NCBI GenBank assembly: GCA_010909725.1
Contig: JAACMV010000023.1
Span: 372,001 to 436,000, forward strand
Direction: 5' to 3'
From: Picochlorum sp. 'celeri'
Taxonomy: Eukaryota > Chlorophyta > Trebouxiophyceae
DNA length: 64,000 bases
Below are positions 490-46,854 of this stretch, in pieces. The notes under the pieces were generated by a model. The model saw nothing but the letters and a program-made list of their open reading frames with translations. It ran no database searches and was not told the origin of the DNA. Made by a program: the position numbers and the translations under genes. Each line of letters opens with the position of its first letter. Positions within the stretch are counted from its first letter, which is position 1.

Positions 490-1893
490 ATGGGAGTTGG
501 GCGCAGATACAGGCAACCCGCAAGGTGTGTATCCCTATCTGAATGAAAAGATTGAAACTTTATGATAACCTATTGTTGCTTCTATGATCCGATAGTCGGT
601 CTTTGTCGAATATCGTCTCTGCAGTGTTGGGGGCCGTTGTAACGATATTGATCTTCTACATAGCAAACCTGCCCAGTATTCATGATGAGGCCCACGATTT
701 TCATAATACCAGGTATGTATTTATCTCACAGATTCGAGTAGAGCCTCTGTAGCGACGACTGATGCTTGCTTTCATGCCCTTGCAGTGATTTTCCAACTGA
801 CACAACACCCTCTATTTCTGATCATACTGTGACCAGCACGCGTTCACCAGCTGAACAAGTAGAAGGAGGAGATATAGATGGTATTCCTGCAGAATTATAT
901 AGGCCTCCAGGACCACCAAATCCTAGAGCATCGAGCAAATTTTTAGACAAGATACCCACGTGTGATTCCCTAGAGTGCCTCAAGGAGGCTCACGAGTTAC
1001 CACGCGGTGTTGCTAAATTCAACCACCCGCATTTCATTATCATAGGTTTTCAAAAGGCGGCAACCACATCATTATACTCTTATTTAGCGAGGCACAATGA
1101 GACGCTTGCCTCTTCCATCAAGGAGCCTGAATTCTTTGTCAATGGATGCAAATCTCGCATTCCAGAGGGATGTTCGAAGAATGCGACAGTCAAATATATT
1201 CACTATACTCTGAGATCCTGGATATATTTAGATTGGAATGGGACAAAGGGTAGCTTTGAGGGCAGCACGCATATTGTGAGAGCAGGGGAAGAGCTGGCAC
1301 CTAGATTGCTACACATGATGCCTTGGGTCAAGTTGATCGTATCATTGAGGGAGCCGATTTCACGGGCAGCATCCATGTTGATCCATAATGAAGATAGAAA
1401 TAATATGGGATGTCTGGCGAGGTTTAATGACATGGGCAAGTGTCTTTTGAAGAGTTCACAATTGAAAGATCCCAAAGATGGTGGACCAGATTCCTATCAC
1501 GAGGCCTTGGAGCCATGGATTTACACGTGGCCATCGACCCAGTTATTCGTTGTTCAGTACGAAGAATTGACAGATGAAGCGGACGGAGAACAGGAGCTTT
1601 TACGAGTAAAGCAGTACCTGGGCCTGGATCCAACATGGCCCAAGAATGGGGGACTTGAAATGAGGAATGCCCGTCGATTTAAGATCAAGCCAGAGGGATG
1701 GAGTATTTCTAGGCAGGACTATGAAACATTGGTAGAGATTGCAAGGGAGGATATGAGGAAAACCTTGGATGTATTGGCAATCAAGTCATTGGTACAACAT
1801 AGAAAGTCCTGGGAGAGAAGATGGGAGAGCATATGGCAAAGCAATCTGGACTCGTGCGATGATTCTGGAATGTGTAATATGGTGTTATCATAG
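490..1893 (+). CDS. Golgi-type carbohydrate sulfotransferase, tandem copy 1
   Basis: Predicted to transfer sulfate from PAPS to a glycan in the Golgi lumen. Exons are 490-526, 625-712 and 786-1893, giving 410 residues. The short basic exon 1 and the hydrophobic exon 2 (LLGAVVTILIFYIANL) form a type II signal anchor. The 5'-phosphosulfate loop GFQKAATTSL starts near residue 129 and the 3'-phosphate motif SLREPISRAASM near residue 228; both are typical of heparan-sulfate-type sulfotransferases. The C-terminus carries the W-x(3)-WESIW-x-N-L-x-SC block shared with the next two copies. The acceptor sugar cannot be told. Same strand and same exon plan as the paralogues downstream, so it arose by tandem duplication. 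The exon 1 donor was chosen because it keeps the anchor in frame. Confidence 0.85.
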
Positions 1894-29751: not shown

Positions 29752-30215
29752 GAATAAATATCAAATCTTTTCTTCTTTTGACAGGTCATCCGCGGCTACC
29801 TCAGTACAGTACCTTGTCGTGTCGCCAAAGAGAGGGTACTACGGACGAGCAGGCATATGAGAACTACGGCAGCGCGTAGCATTGGGTGATATTATTTTGC
29901 TCCTCTCAAATGAATGATTTTTTGTTACAAAGAATTTTTCTTTTTAAAATACAAAGGAATGCTTCCTTTCCTTTCTGTGACGGAACTAGATCATATTTGT
30001 CGAGGTGATTTGGCTCCTCCAGCTGCTGCAAGGCAATGAACCCACTCTCTCGTAGTATTCTACTCTCCAGCCCCACCCTATATTATTAGGATATCCTACC
30101 ATGCATAGTTTTACGCCATTCCATCGTTCAAACGCTTCCAGATTGCGCCACCAGGCAGGTCCACATTTTACTATACCGTCGGAAATTCGAAAAGTAACGC
30201 TATCTGTGTCGAATG
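29752..30215. other. intergenic leader of the permuted tRNA-Arg
   Basis: 464 bp upstream of the permuted tRNA gene. AT-rich, with a TATATTATTAGGATATCC block near 30080. No supported protein gene. The last 15 bases matter: 30203-30215 take part in the predicted bulge-helix-bulge with the sequence after the 5' half. Confidence 0.4.
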
Positions 30216-30308
30216 AGGAAAAGGTCGCGCGTTCGAGCCGCGTAGCGGGTGGTCAAACAACTTTACAGTCAGCCCGCTTAGCTCAGCTGGAAGAGCGTTT
30301 CCTTCCTA
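30216..30308 (+). tRNA. circularly permuted tRNA-Arg(CCU)
   Basis: The 3' half (30216-30251, positions 38-73) lies before the 5' half (30272-30308, positions 1-37), separated by 20 nt. Joined 37-to-38 they form a 73-nt tRNA. Acceptor stem GCCCGCU with AGCGGGU (first pair G-U); D stem GCUC/GAGC; anticodon stem UUUCC/GGAAA; loop UUCCUAA, anticodon CCU; T stem GCGCG/CGCGU with loop UUCGAGC; discriminator G. All pairs are present apart from two terminal G-U wobbles. The leader ends in ...UG before A38, and the trailer begins G after A37. UG|A and UA|G can form 3-nt bulges flanking UUC paired with GAA, a near-canonical splice fold. The T5 run at 30321 ends the transcript. Confidence 0.92.
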
Positions 30309-30320
30309 GATCAGAGTTTC

Positions 30321-30325
30321 TTTTT
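30321..30325 (+). terminator. Pol III terminator of permuted tRNA-Arg
   Basis: TTTTT begins 13 nt after the 5' half of the permuted tRNA, in the position expected for Pol III termination of a transcript that starts before the 3' half. Confidence 0.6.
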
Positions 30326-31004: not shown

Positions 31005-32044
31005 ATGCTAATGATGCGTTCGGCTCTGTCATTGCAAAAGGGCTGTGGCGTTTTCCGTGTCCGAACGAGCAACAAAAAGCAGCATGTGTGCCGCTCGTCT
31101 CAGACAGAAACAGCCGGAGATGTCGCTCAGTTGAGGGAGGAGGTGGCTGCTCGGACGGCAGCCATGGCTAATTTGGAGAAGCAGCTTCTTCATGTAGAAA
31201 ATCTGAGGGCAGAGGAGTTGAGGACTGCCATATCGAGGTTTGAGGAACTCGAGGAGGCCCTGCTGATGGCTGAAAAGAGTATTTTAAAGGAAGAAGAATC
31301 AGTAGCTCATCTGACGAAGCAACTGGAGGCGAAAGATAAGGAGATTTCTGAAGGATTGAAAAAGCTTGAGGTTGCGATGAAGCAAATGCATGCATTCAAA
31401 AGGAAGCAGAGGATGCTAAAGCTCGGGAAGAGGAGGTCCGTGATGCTGCCAAGGCAGAGCTGGAGGCTTCTCAGAATCTTGTGGCGAAAGCGTATGCCCT
31501 CCTGACGGAATGGAAGGAGGATCAAAAGGTAATTGTGACAACGGACAAGGATAACAGCAGCAGCAATGGGAGTGTCCTCAAGGAGGATGAGCTGGAGACT
31601 GTTCTTGCAGAGCTAGATTTGCTGAGGGGAGAGCTTGAAGCAGAGTTAGAGACAAACGAGGATGCCATTGCACGAGCCGAGGCAGCCGAGGCTGAACTGG
31701 AAGAGATCCGAAAGGGAGCACTCAAGCCTTCCAAAGCTCTTGATCCTGCAGAGATGGAACAGATTGCAAAGAAGCTGGCAGCATCCCAACAGGAGTTGAC
31801 TGCATCCAAAACAGAGGAGGCTCGCTTGAGAATTCTTGTTGAAAAGCTGGAAGCTGAAAAGGCAGAGATGGAGCAACAGAAATTAAGCTTAGAAAGCGTA
31901 AATAACAAGGTTTCCATGTCCAAGTATACAAAAGAACTCGAGGAACGCAATAGAGAGCTTGTTGGGGATCTCTCAAAGAGCAAAACAGCCTTGGAGCAAG
32001 CCAAGAATCTCCTTGTCTCATCCTCTTCGTCCATCTTATCCTAA
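31005..32044 (+). CDS. plastid-targeted coiled-coil protein, interrupted by a 1-nt frameshift
   Basis: The ATG at 31005 begins 1 bp after the C11 stop. The N-terminus (MMRSALSLQKGCGVFRVRTS) resembles a plastid transit peptide. The rest is a Glu/Lys/Ala heptad-rich coiled coil in two frames: the first runs to MKQMHAFK, the second resumes at EAEDAKAREEEV and continues to 32044. The break falls at a run of four A at 31398-31401; one more A would make a single frame of 346 residues. A 32-nt GT...AG excision also restores frame but is much shorter than any other intron here. I infer an assembly error or a young frameshift. Function unknown. Confidence 0.65.
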
Positions 32045-32124: not shown

Positions 32125-32128
32125 AAAA
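32125..32128 (-). terminator. Pol III terminator of permuted tRNA-Ser
   Basis: On the minus strand a T4 run lies about 15 nt after the 5' half of the permuted tRNA-Ser, consistent with Pol III termination. A second T4 follows within 10 nt. Confidence 0.5.
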
Positions 32129-32143
32129 GTAAGAATTGAAACA

Positions 32144-32242
32144 TTCTAATCAAGCCCCATGGACCGGACTCGGGCACGACCGCATTGCATGTGTGCATCG
32201 CGGTCGACAGGATTTGAACCTGCGCAGCTTGCGCTACTTGAT
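32144..32242 (-). tRNA. circularly permuted tRNA-Ser(AGA)
   Basis: Minus strand, 3' half first (32242-32199, positions 38-73), then 15 nt, then 5' half (32183-32144, positions 1-37). Joined it is 84 nt. Acceptor GCGGUCG with CGACCGC, seven Watson-Crick pairs; U8, G9; D stem CCC/GGG; anticodon stem CUUGA/UCAAG; loop UUAGAAA, anticodon AGA; long variable arm with AGC/GCU stem, as serine tRNAs require; T stem GCAGG/CCUGU, loop UUCAAAU; discriminator G, the serine identity base. The flanks form a canonical bulge-helix-bulge: bulge UG|A, four-pair helix CUAA with UUAG, bulge AA|U, with both cuts after the second bulge base. TATA-like runs lie upstream of the 3' half. Confidence 0.95.
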
Positions 32243-32507
32243 CATTAGATATATGCAAACGGGGAAATATTCACGACATATAAAATATCGAGTTCCACCG
32301 GCGGACCCATCTTCGCCTATATACAGCGTCCGTGATACAATAATAACCCACTAGGAATATGCGCCAACGTATAGATATGCTGTCCAAGCATAATGCACAC
32401 CATATACGGGTGTGGTCCCAACACGAATGCGTTCCTTACTGTCTCCTGTCTGGAGACTTTTTCTATACAAAGAATTTTGTTCTCAAAAGGATATCTTTAC
32501 AAATAAT

Positions 32508-33566
32508 TTATTTAGAAGTCAATTCTTTCTCCAATTCCTCCAACGCATACACCACCTCATTATCCTGCTCAGAGTATCCCTGAAGCCTTGCTATCTTGGC
32601 ACCCTGTGTCGCAGCCTCAGCAGCACTTTCCAATTCTCCCCCAGCTTTATACGCCACCGCTAACAAGAGCCACACATCTGGAACAGCATCATTCTCCTCC
32701 AAAAGACCCTCCAAAATATCCGCCGCAGTTGCTGTCGAGTCATCCAATTCCAACAACAGCTTGGCCGTCTCAAAACGAAATTCATACGATGGCAGCATAC
32801 GTTCACCCTTCTTCTCATCGCCATTGCCATTGTCATCTTCTTCTTCTTCTTCTTCATCATCATCCCACCATAACTGCAATGATTCCTTCAACAGCCCCAA
32901 TGCCTCGTCCTCTCTCCCTTGAAGCACCCGCAAACTACAAAGAGCCTGCAACGGCTCTGGATTCTTACTCGTTCCACTTCCAGCTTCATGTAAAAGAGAT
33001 TCAACCTCAATATAAAGACGAGACACCTCCTCTTCAGAATCATCCTCTGCCTCATCCAGTGCATCATGAATCAAACCCATCAACAGCTCGGCCAGCGAGC
33101 ACAATGCCGACGTCAGATACTCCTCACTATTCTCATCATCCATATTCCTCAAAATCCCAACCCCCTGCCGCATCGCAGCCTCTGCCTCCTCCGTCCTCCC
33201 ACAGGCATCCAACACCTGTCCCAAATACATGAACTTTTCAAACCCAGTCATGGGAGCCAAATCACAAGCCTTCTGAAGCACCTTTATCGCCTCATCCTTT
33301 CTATCATTCGCAAACTCGGCCAGAAAAGATCCATACCCATCCAAAAACTCGACATTCTCGGGCTCCCGGAGCACACACTCCTTGTACAGGGCCTCTGCCT
33401 GAGCCAAATCTTCACTCATCAGCGCAATCTCTGCTTGCATGAATAATTCCTCACAAGATTTTCTAGTACCATGCTGTTCATTTTTATTCTTTCGTCGCTG
33501 CGTTTGACCCTTACTATTGCTCCCATGCTGTTGCTGTGCATGGCGATGTTGGTGGTGATACCCCAT
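32508..33566 (-). CDS. ACL4: TPR protein similar to ribosomal L4 chaperone ACL4
   Basis: 352 residues from the first ATG at 33566. Basic Gln/His/Lys-rich N-terminus, then TPR-like helices (CEELFMQAEIALMSEDLAQAEALYKE is the first, continuing through EAIKVLQKACDLAP and ALGLLKESLQLW). A strongly acidic insert (poly-Glu/Asp near 32830-32860) and the C-terminal QGYSEQDNEVVYALEELEKEL resemble the Acl4 family of dedicated chaperones for newly made uL4. TPR identity is firm; the Acl4 name is a moderate inference. Confidence 0.65.
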   Translation of the reverse strand: MGYHHQHRHAQQQHGSNSKGQTQRRKNKNEQHGTRKSCEELFMQAEIALMSEDLAQAEALYKECVLREPENVEFLDGYGSFLAEFANDRKDEAIKVLQKACDLAPMTGFEKFMYLGQVLDACGRTEEAEAAMRQGVGILRNMDDENSEEYLTSALCSLAELLMGLIHDALDEAEDDSEEEVSRLYIEVESLLHEAGSGTSKNPEPLQALCSLRVLQGREDEALGLLKESLQLWWDDDEEEEEEDDNGNGDEKKGERMLPSYEFRFETAKLLLELDDSTATAADILEGLLEENDAVPDVWLLLAVAYKAGGELESAAEAATQGAKIARLQGYSEQDNEVVYALEELEKELTSK

Positions 33567-34077
33567 CGTATTCTCCACTCCTCACATACGACACGCCACG
33601 AAATCACAACTTTTACTATGATTCAAAAATTTTGGAATATTGGAAGCAGATAAAACATGTCACGACAGACAGAACACAGAGGGTTCAAAGATCGATACCA
33701 ATGCTCCCCATCAACCGATTGATTCAATCGGATTTTTTACATTCCACTACTAGTAGGATGTGGATGATGAAAGCAACTTGCTGGGGGCAAAATTGCACAC
33801 AATGAAAAATGTGCCATGACATTCCACTCGAATACACACCCTCCTCCTCTCTTCCTACTAATCCTACTAGCGATAGAAGGAGTCTGATGTGATGGCTACT
33901 GGGTCTTACCCGTGCATCTCATTTTGAGGTGATTTTTTTTACCCCCTCACATGTACATGTGAGAGGAGAGAGCATGTCAATGTGCCCTGGCAATTCTTGT
34001 TGGGCCCATTCATTTTTAAATGAAATGTTGGTATACACACAATCACATTCATAGATTATATTACAAAAAACATAAAC
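33567..34077. other. divergent promoter region with possible structured RNA
   Basis: 511 bp between ACL4 and the first ABC1 kinase. It has a CATCAACCGA word near 33709 and, at 33901-33963, two adjacent hairpins, a T8 run and an 18-bp palindrome, listed separately. No protein gene. Confidence 0.4.
33901..33963 (+). ncRNA. candidate structured small RNA (3' part): two hairpins, U-rich run, terminal palindrome
   Basis: Hairpin 1 (33901-33911) pairs GGGU with ACCC. Hairpin 2 (33915-33931) pairs CAUCUCA with UGAGGUG (one G-U). A U8 run at 33933-33940 follows, then a perfect 18-nt palindrome at 33946-33963 (CTCACATGT/ACATGTGAG). Stem-loop, AU(n)A, stem-loop is the layout of an Sm site in an snRNA, while hairpins before U8 also fit a Pol III transcript end. 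I recognise no snRNA core sequence, so this is speculative and the 5' end is unknown. Confidence 0.25.
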
Positions 34078-45385: not shown

Positions 45386-46714
45386 TTACTGTTTTTTTCC
45401 TCCACCCATCTTGGCCAACGCAGCGCCAATGGCATCATGATACTCATCTGGAAGAATATCAAAAAGCTGGGACGATGTTTTCGTATCATCATTGGCATGT
45501 GCTACTCTCTTGCCAGGCCGCTGCTCTTCATCAAGGAGCTGCATACTGTTGCTATCAAAGCTAAATGGATACACGTGGTGCTTGGAACTCTCCTTCGCCT
45601 CTGCATGCTGAACGACTATATTCGAGTGTATTTTGCTCATACTATCCTTTATTGTATCGCATATTTTACTCAGAGAGAATTCAACATGCCAGCCACAGGA
45701 CTCTGTGCATTCTCGTGATGGAGCATTCAGGCTCTTGGTCAGACGATCTTGTACCTCCCCATGCTCTACATCTATCACATGAATATGCACCGGGAACTTC
45801 TCTATAGGATGCTTCAGCGTCGATATGGACCTGTAGTCCTGTTCTAATACGTCATCGTCTTCGTCATGATCATCTTCATCCTCCCCAGAACTCTGGTGTT
45901 GCTGTTTATCAGTCAGAGTGATGACATGATACACGGATGACTGTCTCTCATGTCGAGGATCGTACCCTTTCCGAACCCATGAATACCTCCATGGTCCAGA
46001 CGAAAACCGATAACATAATGCTGCCAGCTGTTCATTCACATCTTCATCTGTAAACACCTGGCCTTGAGATTCCTCCAACAGCACGGGCGCTAAAGCAGAG
46101 TTCATATACACGGGCCTTTTTTTGAAAATCTTTCTCAAAACATGCCCCGCAGTAGACAACCTTGGATCAGAATCATCCACGTCATCGTGAAAATACCCAG
46201 CAGCATCCTTTGGAGCAGAAGGAGCACCATACTCGAGGAGCACTACACCACTCCTCATCGTGGAATACATCCGAGACCGCACCGCATCTCGACCAGAACC
46301 ATACGCATCCACAGCATACTCTACGCTATCCTCCACCTGAAACACTGGCGGAATGCACTGCAACGTGCCTTTCGTCTCCTCCACCTGCATATCTGCAGGA
46401 GACTCAAACGCATAACACTGCGTCACAGGTATCGTATGAGCCGTCTCTTCCTCTATGTTCAACCTCAGCAACATCATATTTGGCTTTCGGACATCATTAC
46501 TCACGACAGCATGACAAAACTCGTCTTCAGGACGAAGTTTGACACTGATATTCCGAGAGTGACTTTTACGCTGTTTCTGCAACCCTTCCAGGCCCCCAAA
46601 AGTCTCCAAAGCCTTTTCTGGATTAGATAAATCCTCTAGATAGCCAGGAAACTCGACTGCAAAATACGACGTGTCAGCTGTTGCCTCTGGAACAGTGACT
46701 GGAATGTCCTTCAT
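45386..46714 (-). CDS. GTF3C5: transcription factor IIIC subunit 5 (GTF3C5/tau95 family)
   Basis: 442 residues, no introns. The family pattern is clear: YFAVEFPGYLEDLSNPEKAL-type start, ETFGGLEGL, ISVKLRPEDEFCHAV, MMLLRL, then the central PWRYSWVRKGYDPRHE motif. A poly-acidic stretch lies near 45850-45890. In yeast and human this subunit helps bind the A box of tRNA genes. That is of interest because the two tRNA genes in this window have A and B boxes in reversed order. A 47-codon upstream ORF overlaps the start codon. Confidence 0.88.
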   Translation of the reverse strand: MKDIPVTVPEATADTSYFAVEFPGYLEDLSNPEKALETFGGLEGLQKQRKSHSRNISVKLRPEDEFCHAVVSNDVRKPNMMLLRLNIEEETAHTIPVTQCYAFESPADMQVEETKGTLQCIPPVFQVEDSVEYAVDAYGSGRDAVRSRMYSTMRSGVVLLEYGAPSAPKDAAGYFHDDVDDSDPRLSTAGHVLRKIFKKRPVYMNSALAPVLLEESQGQVFTDEDVNEQLAALCYRFSSGPWRYSWVRKGYDPRHERQSSVYHVITLTDKQQHQSSGEDEDDHDEDDDVLEQDYRSISTLKHPIEKFPVHIHVIDVEHGEVQDRLTKSLNAPSRECTESCGWHVEFSLSKICDTIKDSMSKIHSNIVVQHAEAKESSKHHVYPFSFDSNSMQLLDEEQRPGKRVAHANDDTKTSSQLFDILPDEYHDAIGAALAKMGGGKKQ

Positions 46715-46854
46715 TCTTTCAAACCATTGATCGAACCAATGGATGCTCTGATTATTCCTGTCGTTTCGTATATATTGAATACCAATCTGCCAGGCATCAG
46801 CCAGGCATCGGGTTTGTACACAGTCGTTCCTGTGTCAAAAAATTTGAATGGCAT
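46711..46854 (-). CDS. upstream ORF (47 codons) overlapping the GTF3C5 start
   Basis: An ATG at 46854 opens a 47-codon frame whose TGA overlaps the GTF3C5 ATG as ATGA. The peptide begins MPFKFFDTGTTVYKPDAW and is rich in beta-favouring residues; I do not recognise it. The ATGA overlap is the arrangement seen in termination-reinitiation and in dicistronic messages. Whether it is translated is unknown. Confidence 0.4.
   Translation of the reverse strand: MPFKFFDTGTTVYKPDAWLMPGRLVFNIYETTGIIRASIGSINGLKE

Follow-up and report, generated by a model that had tools for sequence, protein, structure and literature searches.

Layout of the tRNA-Ser(AGA) locus

The window, the whole 64,000-nucleotide stretch of the Picochlorum celeri genome analysed here, carries on its minus strand a tRNA-Ser(AGA) gene whose two halves stand in swapped order. 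Read from 32242 to 32144, the gene consists of a 44-nt 3' half, a 15-nt linker and a 40-nt 5' half; the order of an ordinary gene, with the 5' half ahead of the 3' half, is not found at this locus. Joining the halves between positions 37 and 38 yields an 84-nt tRNA that ARAGORN labels tRNA-Ser(aga), with a 7-bp acceptor stem, T and anticodon stems of 5 bp each, a long variable region and discriminator G. tRNA-Ser(AGA) decodes the serine codons UCU and UCC. The features of the locus, in the direction of transcription, are listed below.

32282..32291, minus strand: TCGATATTTT, AT-rich, 49 nt ahead of position 38 of tRNA-Ser(AGA), a weak match to the CAGGAAATTC element described below (motif search)
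32243..32248, minus strand: leader CUAAUG; CUAA pairs with loop positions 32-35 (UUAG), with UG as the bulge on the 5' side of the predicted cut before A38 (sequence and register test)
32199..32242, minus strand: 3' half of tRNA-Ser(AGA), positions 38-73 with the long variable arm and discriminator G, 44 nt, first in the order of transcription (sequence, ARAGORN, scanner, R2)
32184..32198, minus strand: linker of 15 nt from the discriminator to position 1, expected to be removed from the circle at both acceptor ends (scanner)
32144..32183, minus strand: 5' half of tRNA-Ser(AGA), positions 1-37, ending in ..UUAGAA, 40 nt (sequence, ARAGORN, scanner, R2)
32125..32128, minus strand: TTTT run starting 16 nt past position 37, the presumed Pol III terminator of tRNA-Ser(AGA) (downstream T-run listing and control)

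The permuted order, the 15-nt spacing and the coordinates are as claimed in the initial annotation, made from the sequence alone (sequence, scanner, ARAGORN), and the seven Watson-Crick acceptor pairs, the serine-type long variable arm, the discriminator G and the anticodon AGA that it described are all present. The gene sits between convergent open frames at 31370-32044 (+) and 32508-33581 (-), in a window with a G+C content of 42-49% per 2 kb. A 131-base query covering the Ser gene has two matches in the assembly at E up to 0.001, which are the two identical haplotype copies; no ordinary gene with identical halves appeared in this genome check. Over 3131 bases around the gene the two haplotypes are 99.97% identical, with the same order of halves in both. 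The host is a trebouxiophyte (Picochlorum celeri, placed by NCBI in the Trebouxiophyceae), not a prasinophyte.

Detection of permuted genes in the window

Standard tRNA searches were predicted to miss the gene, and on unjoined sequence both programs used here are blank. ARAGORN in its bacterial setting without introns reports no tRNA in the window, ARAGORN with introns allowed reports none in either 3131-base stretch surrounding the Ser gene, and Rfam at the gathering threshold finds none in the whole window. Since the two programs are blind to both permuted genes of the window, standard annotation probably misses genes of this kind.

We used a scanner that demands four elements in permuted order: T arm, acceptor, D arm and anticodon stem. 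It returns two matches in the real window, Ser(AGA) and Arg(CCT), each with a score of 51, compared with one match, scoring 40, in 100 dinucleotide shuffles. A class-I permuted covariance model (R1) gives Ser(AGA) 24.4 bits. This lies within the background of ordinary tRNA loci, which reach 26.5 bits, so R1 alone is no proof of the Ser gene. Because R1 was insufficient, we built a class-II permuted model (R2) from seven further tRNAs for Ser and Leu, of which four are permuted and three are ordinary tRNAs rearranged into permuted order, excluding Ser(AGA) itself and omitting the anticodon-stem pairs because that stem was misaligned. R2 scores Ser(AGA) at 62.6 bits with the exact ends 32144-32242; its best other match in 113,180 bases, ordinary Ser and Leu loci included, is 34 bits. 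A dedicated search for permuted tRNAs, run with the scanner and R2, thus recovers the locus.

The second permuted gene, tRNA-Arg(CCT), occupies 30216-30308 on the plus strand, about 1.8 kb from Ser(AGA) on the opposite strand, and scores 60.7 bits with R1. Its features are as follows.

30179..30188, plus strand: TCGGAAATTC, an upstream element of the CAGGAAATTC type beginning 37 nt before position 38 of tRNA-Arg(CCT) (motif search)
30216..30251, plus strand: 3' half of tRNA-Arg(CCT) (R1, scanner)
30252..30271, plus strand: linker of tRNA-Arg(CCT), 20 nt (scanner)
30272..30308, plus strand: 5' half of tRNA-Arg(CCT) (R1, scanner)
30321..30325, plus strand: TTTTT run, the presumed terminator of tRNA-Arg(CCT) (downstream T-run listing)

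Permuted and ordinary tRNA genes in the genome

The assembly surveyed comprises 27,412,692 bases in 30 contigs, and the count of permuted genes covers one contig set (C1-C15) plus the window. Candidates were located by T-arm patterns and the stretches then scanned; the scanner, R1 and R2 detect 37/38 junctions only. The pattern GGTTCRANYCC occurs at 187 places; among 100 listed, 94 lie on C1-C15 and all 94 were taken in, places found only on the other haplotype being left out. AGTTCRANYCT occurs at 166 places (86 of 100 listed on C1-C15) and CGTTCRANYCG at 105 (53 on C1-C15). From each of these two, 26 places with G57 were taken in, the latter including Arg(CCT) of the window. TGTTCRANYCA, with 404 places, was left out of the survey. 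An Rfam tRNA search, in which 63 of 866 candidates were scored, gave at least 34 matches, and 32 of these 34 pair by position on two contigs, as in a phased diploid. Several ARAGORN labels were changed by hand after reading the 32-37 loop: L027 to Arg(CCG), L031 and L032 to Leu(CAA), L040 to Ser(TGA), L086 to Arg(ACG) and L115 to Pro(TGG). The ARAGORN calls of Val at L042 and Cys at L054 were rejected as false.

This partial survey contains at least 18 permuted loci with 17 anticodons, all joined at 37/38, the sole junction type visible to these searches. They are Ser (AGA, GCT), Arg (CCT, TCT, and TCG at two loci), Ala (AGC, TGC, CGC), Leu (AAG, CAG, TAA), Thr (AGT, CGT), Gly(GCC), Cys(GCA), Tyr(GTA) and one Met (CAT). 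In this genome, then, permutation is common and not the rare gene form that had been supposed. Every permuted locus except Ser(AGA) scores at least 29.6 bits with R1, and the linkers of the 17 distinct genes measure 11-128 nt. The two near-identical copies of Arg(TCG) (L080, L083) lie on one chromosome, with a linker of 128 nt. Eight further stretches were scanned and contain no permuted gene.

Ordinary tRNA genes were found for at least 22 species, some with hand-corrected anticodons: Lys CTT/TTT, Ile AAT/TAT, Asn, Val TAC, Glu TTC/CTC, initiator Met, Asp, Pro AGG/TGG/CGG, Phe, Trp, Leu CAA, Arg ACG/CCG, Gly TCC, Gln CTG and Ser CGA/TGA. The only anticodon on both lists is CAT. The ordinary Met gene resembles plant initiators and we take it to be the initiator, for which reason the permuted Met is taken as the elongator. 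Permuted genes thus make up 17 of the 39 recovered tRNA species, about 44%. Neither form was found in the partial survey for Gln(TTG), Gly(CCC), Thr(TGT), Val(AAC), Val(CAC), Leu(TAG), His or Sec.

Locus L099 is a tRNA-like sequence at about 636-737 (-), on C14 near 382,340, with a T6 run downstream and the T-arm pattern also at the corresponding place on C18. ARAGORN labels it Ser(aga), a reading that requires a 12-nt intron. The best frame, with an Rfam score of 40 bits, is a different 69-nt frame in which we read the anticodon loop as too short, and L099 was rejected as an ordinary Ser(AGA).

The splice motif and the folding of the precursor

The Ser gene has the 4-bp helix (CUAA/UUAG) and the pair of 3-nt bulges first described, with predicted cuts at UG^A and AA^U (sequence, register test). 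The description of the bulge-helix-bulge as canonical does not hold. By inspection, a good outer helix h' is lacking in the Ser gene, which makes its motif relaxed (hBH) rather than strict. The hBH motif is also the form reported for green-algal permuted genes (PMC3978253).

The pairing of leader bases -6 to -3 with loop bases 32-35 was analysed in the 17 distinct genes; the near-identical Arg(TCG) copy L083 was left out, as were the duplicate Ser loci L001, L002 and L048, and all four were also excluded from the motif tests below. Pairs form in 56 of 68 cells, compared with 22-35 in 12 neighbouring registers. When loops were reassigned to leaders at random 20,000 times, 56 was never reached (mean 40, maximum 52). 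The splice helix played no part in selection by the scanner. Ser(AGA) itself has four of four pairs; the helix is poor in Ser(GCT) (1/4) and Cys(GCA) (2/4).

Folded as naked RNA, the Ser precursor has a minimum free energy (MFE) with a z-score of -3.99, and 0 of 200 shuffles fold as low. Folding of the minus-strand transcript had been proposed as a check. The predicted structure keeps the leader/loop helix together with three arms (acceptor, T and variable); the D arm and anticodon stem are replaced by another hairpin. Of the intended pairs, the MFE structure for Ser contains 16 out of 25 and that for Arg(CCT) seven out of 24, the 18 loci ranging from 0/24 to 21/23, and six of 200 shuffles fold as well as Arg(CCT). 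Naked-RNA folds are a poor witness for permuted precursors and decide nothing on mechanism.

The genome is predicted to encode a tRNA splicing endonuclease: two frames carry the tRNA endonuclease domain (PF01974), and their best solved relatives are the Sen2 and Sen34 chains. The Sen2-like frame, of 112 aa, occurs with equal score at seven places (C10:613187, C16:614070, C21:81237, C25:30222, C9:1564, C12:1564 and C26:1564). Its copies on C10 and on C12, a contig of 25 kb, are identical over 635 bases. The seven places are either assembly duplicates or a repeated segment.

Transcription signals

A run of four or more T lies within 40 nt downstream of all 18 permuted loci and of 21 of the 22 ordinary genes, compared with 15.7% of random stretches of the window. 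Upstream motifs were searched in the 17 distinct permuted genes and the 22 ordinary genes. The motif of the permuted genes is CAGGAAATTC, with a total score of 183 versus 141-154 for eight random sets of 17; the motif found separately for the ordinary genes is CAGAAAATTC. A matrix trained on permuted genes places 11 of the 22 ordinary genes above 95% of the background and six above 99% (binomial p about 2e-9). Conversely, the matrix trained on ordinary genes places seven of the 17 permuted genes above 95%, all seven also above 99% (p about 1e-5). The remaining ten permuted and 11 ordinary genes fall below 95% in these tests. Roughly one gene in two, among ordinary and permuted genes alike, thus has a clear upstream element, and the copy at Ser(AGA) is weak. 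The CAGGAAATTC-type element resembles a Pol III promoter of the external kind, shared by ordinary and permuted genes. Together, the splice-helix register, the T-runs and the shared upstream element support the predicted function of the permuted genes.

A TFIIIC subunit with a Tau95 domain (Tfc1-like) is encoded at 45386-46834 (-); none of 14 prokaryote controls matches the domain. This gene shares the window with two genes whose A and B boxes are reversed. A B-block domain match in a 1597-aa frame on C7 is weaker evidence because the model also matches eight of the 14 prokaryote controls.

Two further sequences recur near ordinary genes. AGAGGTCCCGGGTTCAAA lies directly 5' of the Asn and Phe genes (L007, L023), about 20 bases before position 1. 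It looks like a tRNA variable loop and T arm cut near position 59, and might represent an external B box or a tRNA duplicated in part. A stretch like TAAGGAACTT recurs at or just past the T-run of L003, L011, L013, L019, L116 and L128.

Proposed processing of tRNA-Ser(AGA) through a circle

A circularly permuted tRNA-Ser(AGA) is supported as the reading that fits the cloverleaf, the splice-helix register, the T-run and the arrangement in both haplotypes. From the sequence evidence we consider it highly probable that the locus is a working nuclear gene whose product is processed via an RNA circle. RNA polymerase III would be recruited from upstream, not through the internal box order, and would make one linear precursor consisting of the 3' half, linker and 5' half and ending at the T-run. 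Judging from the pairing and its register, this precursor would take a cloverleaf closed by the relaxed bulge-helix-bulge. The tRNA splicing endonuclease would cleave at UG^A38 and A37^U. Joining of position 37 to position 38 by ligation would then produce a circle, and opening at the acceptor stem would remove the 15-nt linker. Opening of such circles is the work of RNase P and RNase Z; addition of CCA follows. Cleavage, ligation and opening are modelled on Cyanidioschyzon merolae, in which a linear transcript is cut at the bulge-helix-bulge, ligated to a circle and opened at the acceptor stem (PMC3978253).

Could the locus instead be a permuted pseudogene or relic, real in layout but silent, with UCU and UCC read by another gene outside the survey? 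The weak upstream element of Ser would suit such a relic, as would the ARAGORN label of L099, and the survey of T-arm variants is partial, such that it could miss an ordinary Ser(AGA) whose T arm is unusual. However, all stems are intact, the loop helix is complete and the T-run is present. Beyond the two haplotype copies, the 131 bases match nothing at E up to 0.001, the best frame of L099 is not a Ser(AGA), and the 17 permuted anticodons, CAT excepted, are absent from the 22 ordinary species found. We therefore regard a silent relic as improbable.

Split tRNA genes, in which two half genes are transcribed apart and joined in trans with no circle, are known from Nanoarchaeum equitans (PMC3978253). 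At the Ser locus the 15-nt linker contains neither a T-run nor an upstream element (score -3.8, p about 0.3). The linkers of all 17 genes span 11-128 nt, and in the predicted fold of the Ser precursor the two acceptor strands pair with each other over the linker; joining in trans is accordingly very unlikely. An assembly error or a chance pairing of tRNA-like fragments is the least credible reading: although the published assembly is described as polished with long reads only (PMC7225527), the order is identical in both haplotypes, 17 distinct genes share one layout, and 100 shuffles gave a single weaker match.

Extent and origin of permutation

If Ser(AGA) and its fellows are working genes processed through circles, much of the decoding in P. 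celeri would fall to them. Among 5,953 codons of 11 open reading frames in the window, 34.6% are assigned first to permuted tRNAs under wobble rules; codons for Ala, Cys, Tyr or Met, counting starts, account for 14.4%. With CAT excepted, no ordinary copy of a permuted anticodon was found in the partial survey, so the circle pathway is probably essential, and protein synthesis in this alga probably depends on RNA circles.

We also put forward a broader proposal, which we hold to be evenly poised. P. celeri would have the most permuted tRNA set of any known genome (the 44% given above), and its Ala, Cys, Tyr and internal Met codons would be read only via permuted genes, which would make RNA circularisation obligatory for translation. 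Permutation would have been made possible by the external CAGGAAATTC element on ordinary and permuted genes alike, which would render the order of A and B boxes irrelevant, with TFIIIC retained. The 18 or more permuted loci exceed the 11 of C. merolae in the 2014 count; that they form the largest set is conjecture. The points of interest are the extent of permutation and the shared upstream element, the gene kind itself being already known. A fast-growing alga in a transformable genus, as Picochlorum is described, that depends on permuted tRNAs would allow their persistence, their transcription and the need for the circle to be tested.

Permuted genes have been proposed to originate from an intron-containing gene that was tandemly duplicated and then lost its outer halves (PMC3978253). 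In flanks of up to 200 nt we found no fossils of outer halves; a gene's own halves score no better there than those of others. Linkers resemble promoters in three of 17 genes at p up to 0.05, with Thr(AGT) alone convincing, as judged by a matrix of ten hand-picked ordinary sites. These results leave the tandem-duplication origin neither supported nor excluded.

Comparison with known permuted tRNA systems

As the initial annotation had noted, the class is not new: permuted tRNAs are known in Cyanidioschyzon, Mamiellophyceae, nucleomorphs, Thermofilum and Auxenochlorella. In the literature searched we found no report of them in Picochlorum, and the word "permuted" is absent from the main text of the SENEW3 genome paper. 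A 2014 review counts 34 permuted tRNA genes in seven species, with a maximum of 11 per species (PMC3978253).

The type II genes of Ostreococcus and Micromonas, as tabulated there, resemble those of P. celeri (Picochlorum in the comparisons below) in the 37/38 junction, the hBH motif and the short linker, and Ser, Leu, Cys and Arg(TCT) are permuted in both groups (PMC3978253). The Ser(AGA) linker is 64 bp in Micromonas pusilla and 15 nt in Picochlorum. Ostreococcus and Micromonas have 3-6 permuted genes per genome, in contrast to at least 18 loci and 17 anticodons in Picochlorum. Ala, Thr, Gly, Tyr and the presumed elongator Met, permuted in Picochlorum, are absent from the green-algal rows of the review, and the 128-nt linker of Picochlorum Arg(TCG) exceeds the maximum of 74 in its table (PMC3978253).

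C. merolae, in which 11 of 43 tRNA genes are permuted, shares with Picochlorum the order of the halves, the expected circular intermediate and the logic of an upstream promoter (PMC3978253). Its junctions are of types I-IV, whereas those of Picochlorum are at 37/38 only, in searches limited to 37/38. According to the review, the permuted box order is ill-suited to TFIIIC binding, and homologues of TFC1 and TFC3 were not identified in C. merolae (PMC3978253); Picochlorum, in contrast, encodes Tau95 (Tfc1-like) and the weaker B-block match. Within the same class, Trebouxiophyceae, permuted tRNA genes were reported in 2025 for Auxenochlorella UTEX 250-A, where they were found because the tRNAscan-SE set was incomplete (PMC12636532). 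The nucleomorph of Bigelowiella natans carries a permuted Ser(AGA) with the same 37/38 junction as in Picochlorum and a linker of 5 bp compared with 15 (PMC3978253). Permuted Ser(AGA) and Ser(CGA) are known from the nucleomorphs of B. natans (PMC3978253) and Amorphochlora (PMC4494063), whereas Ser(CGA) of Picochlorum is an ordinary intron-containing gene.
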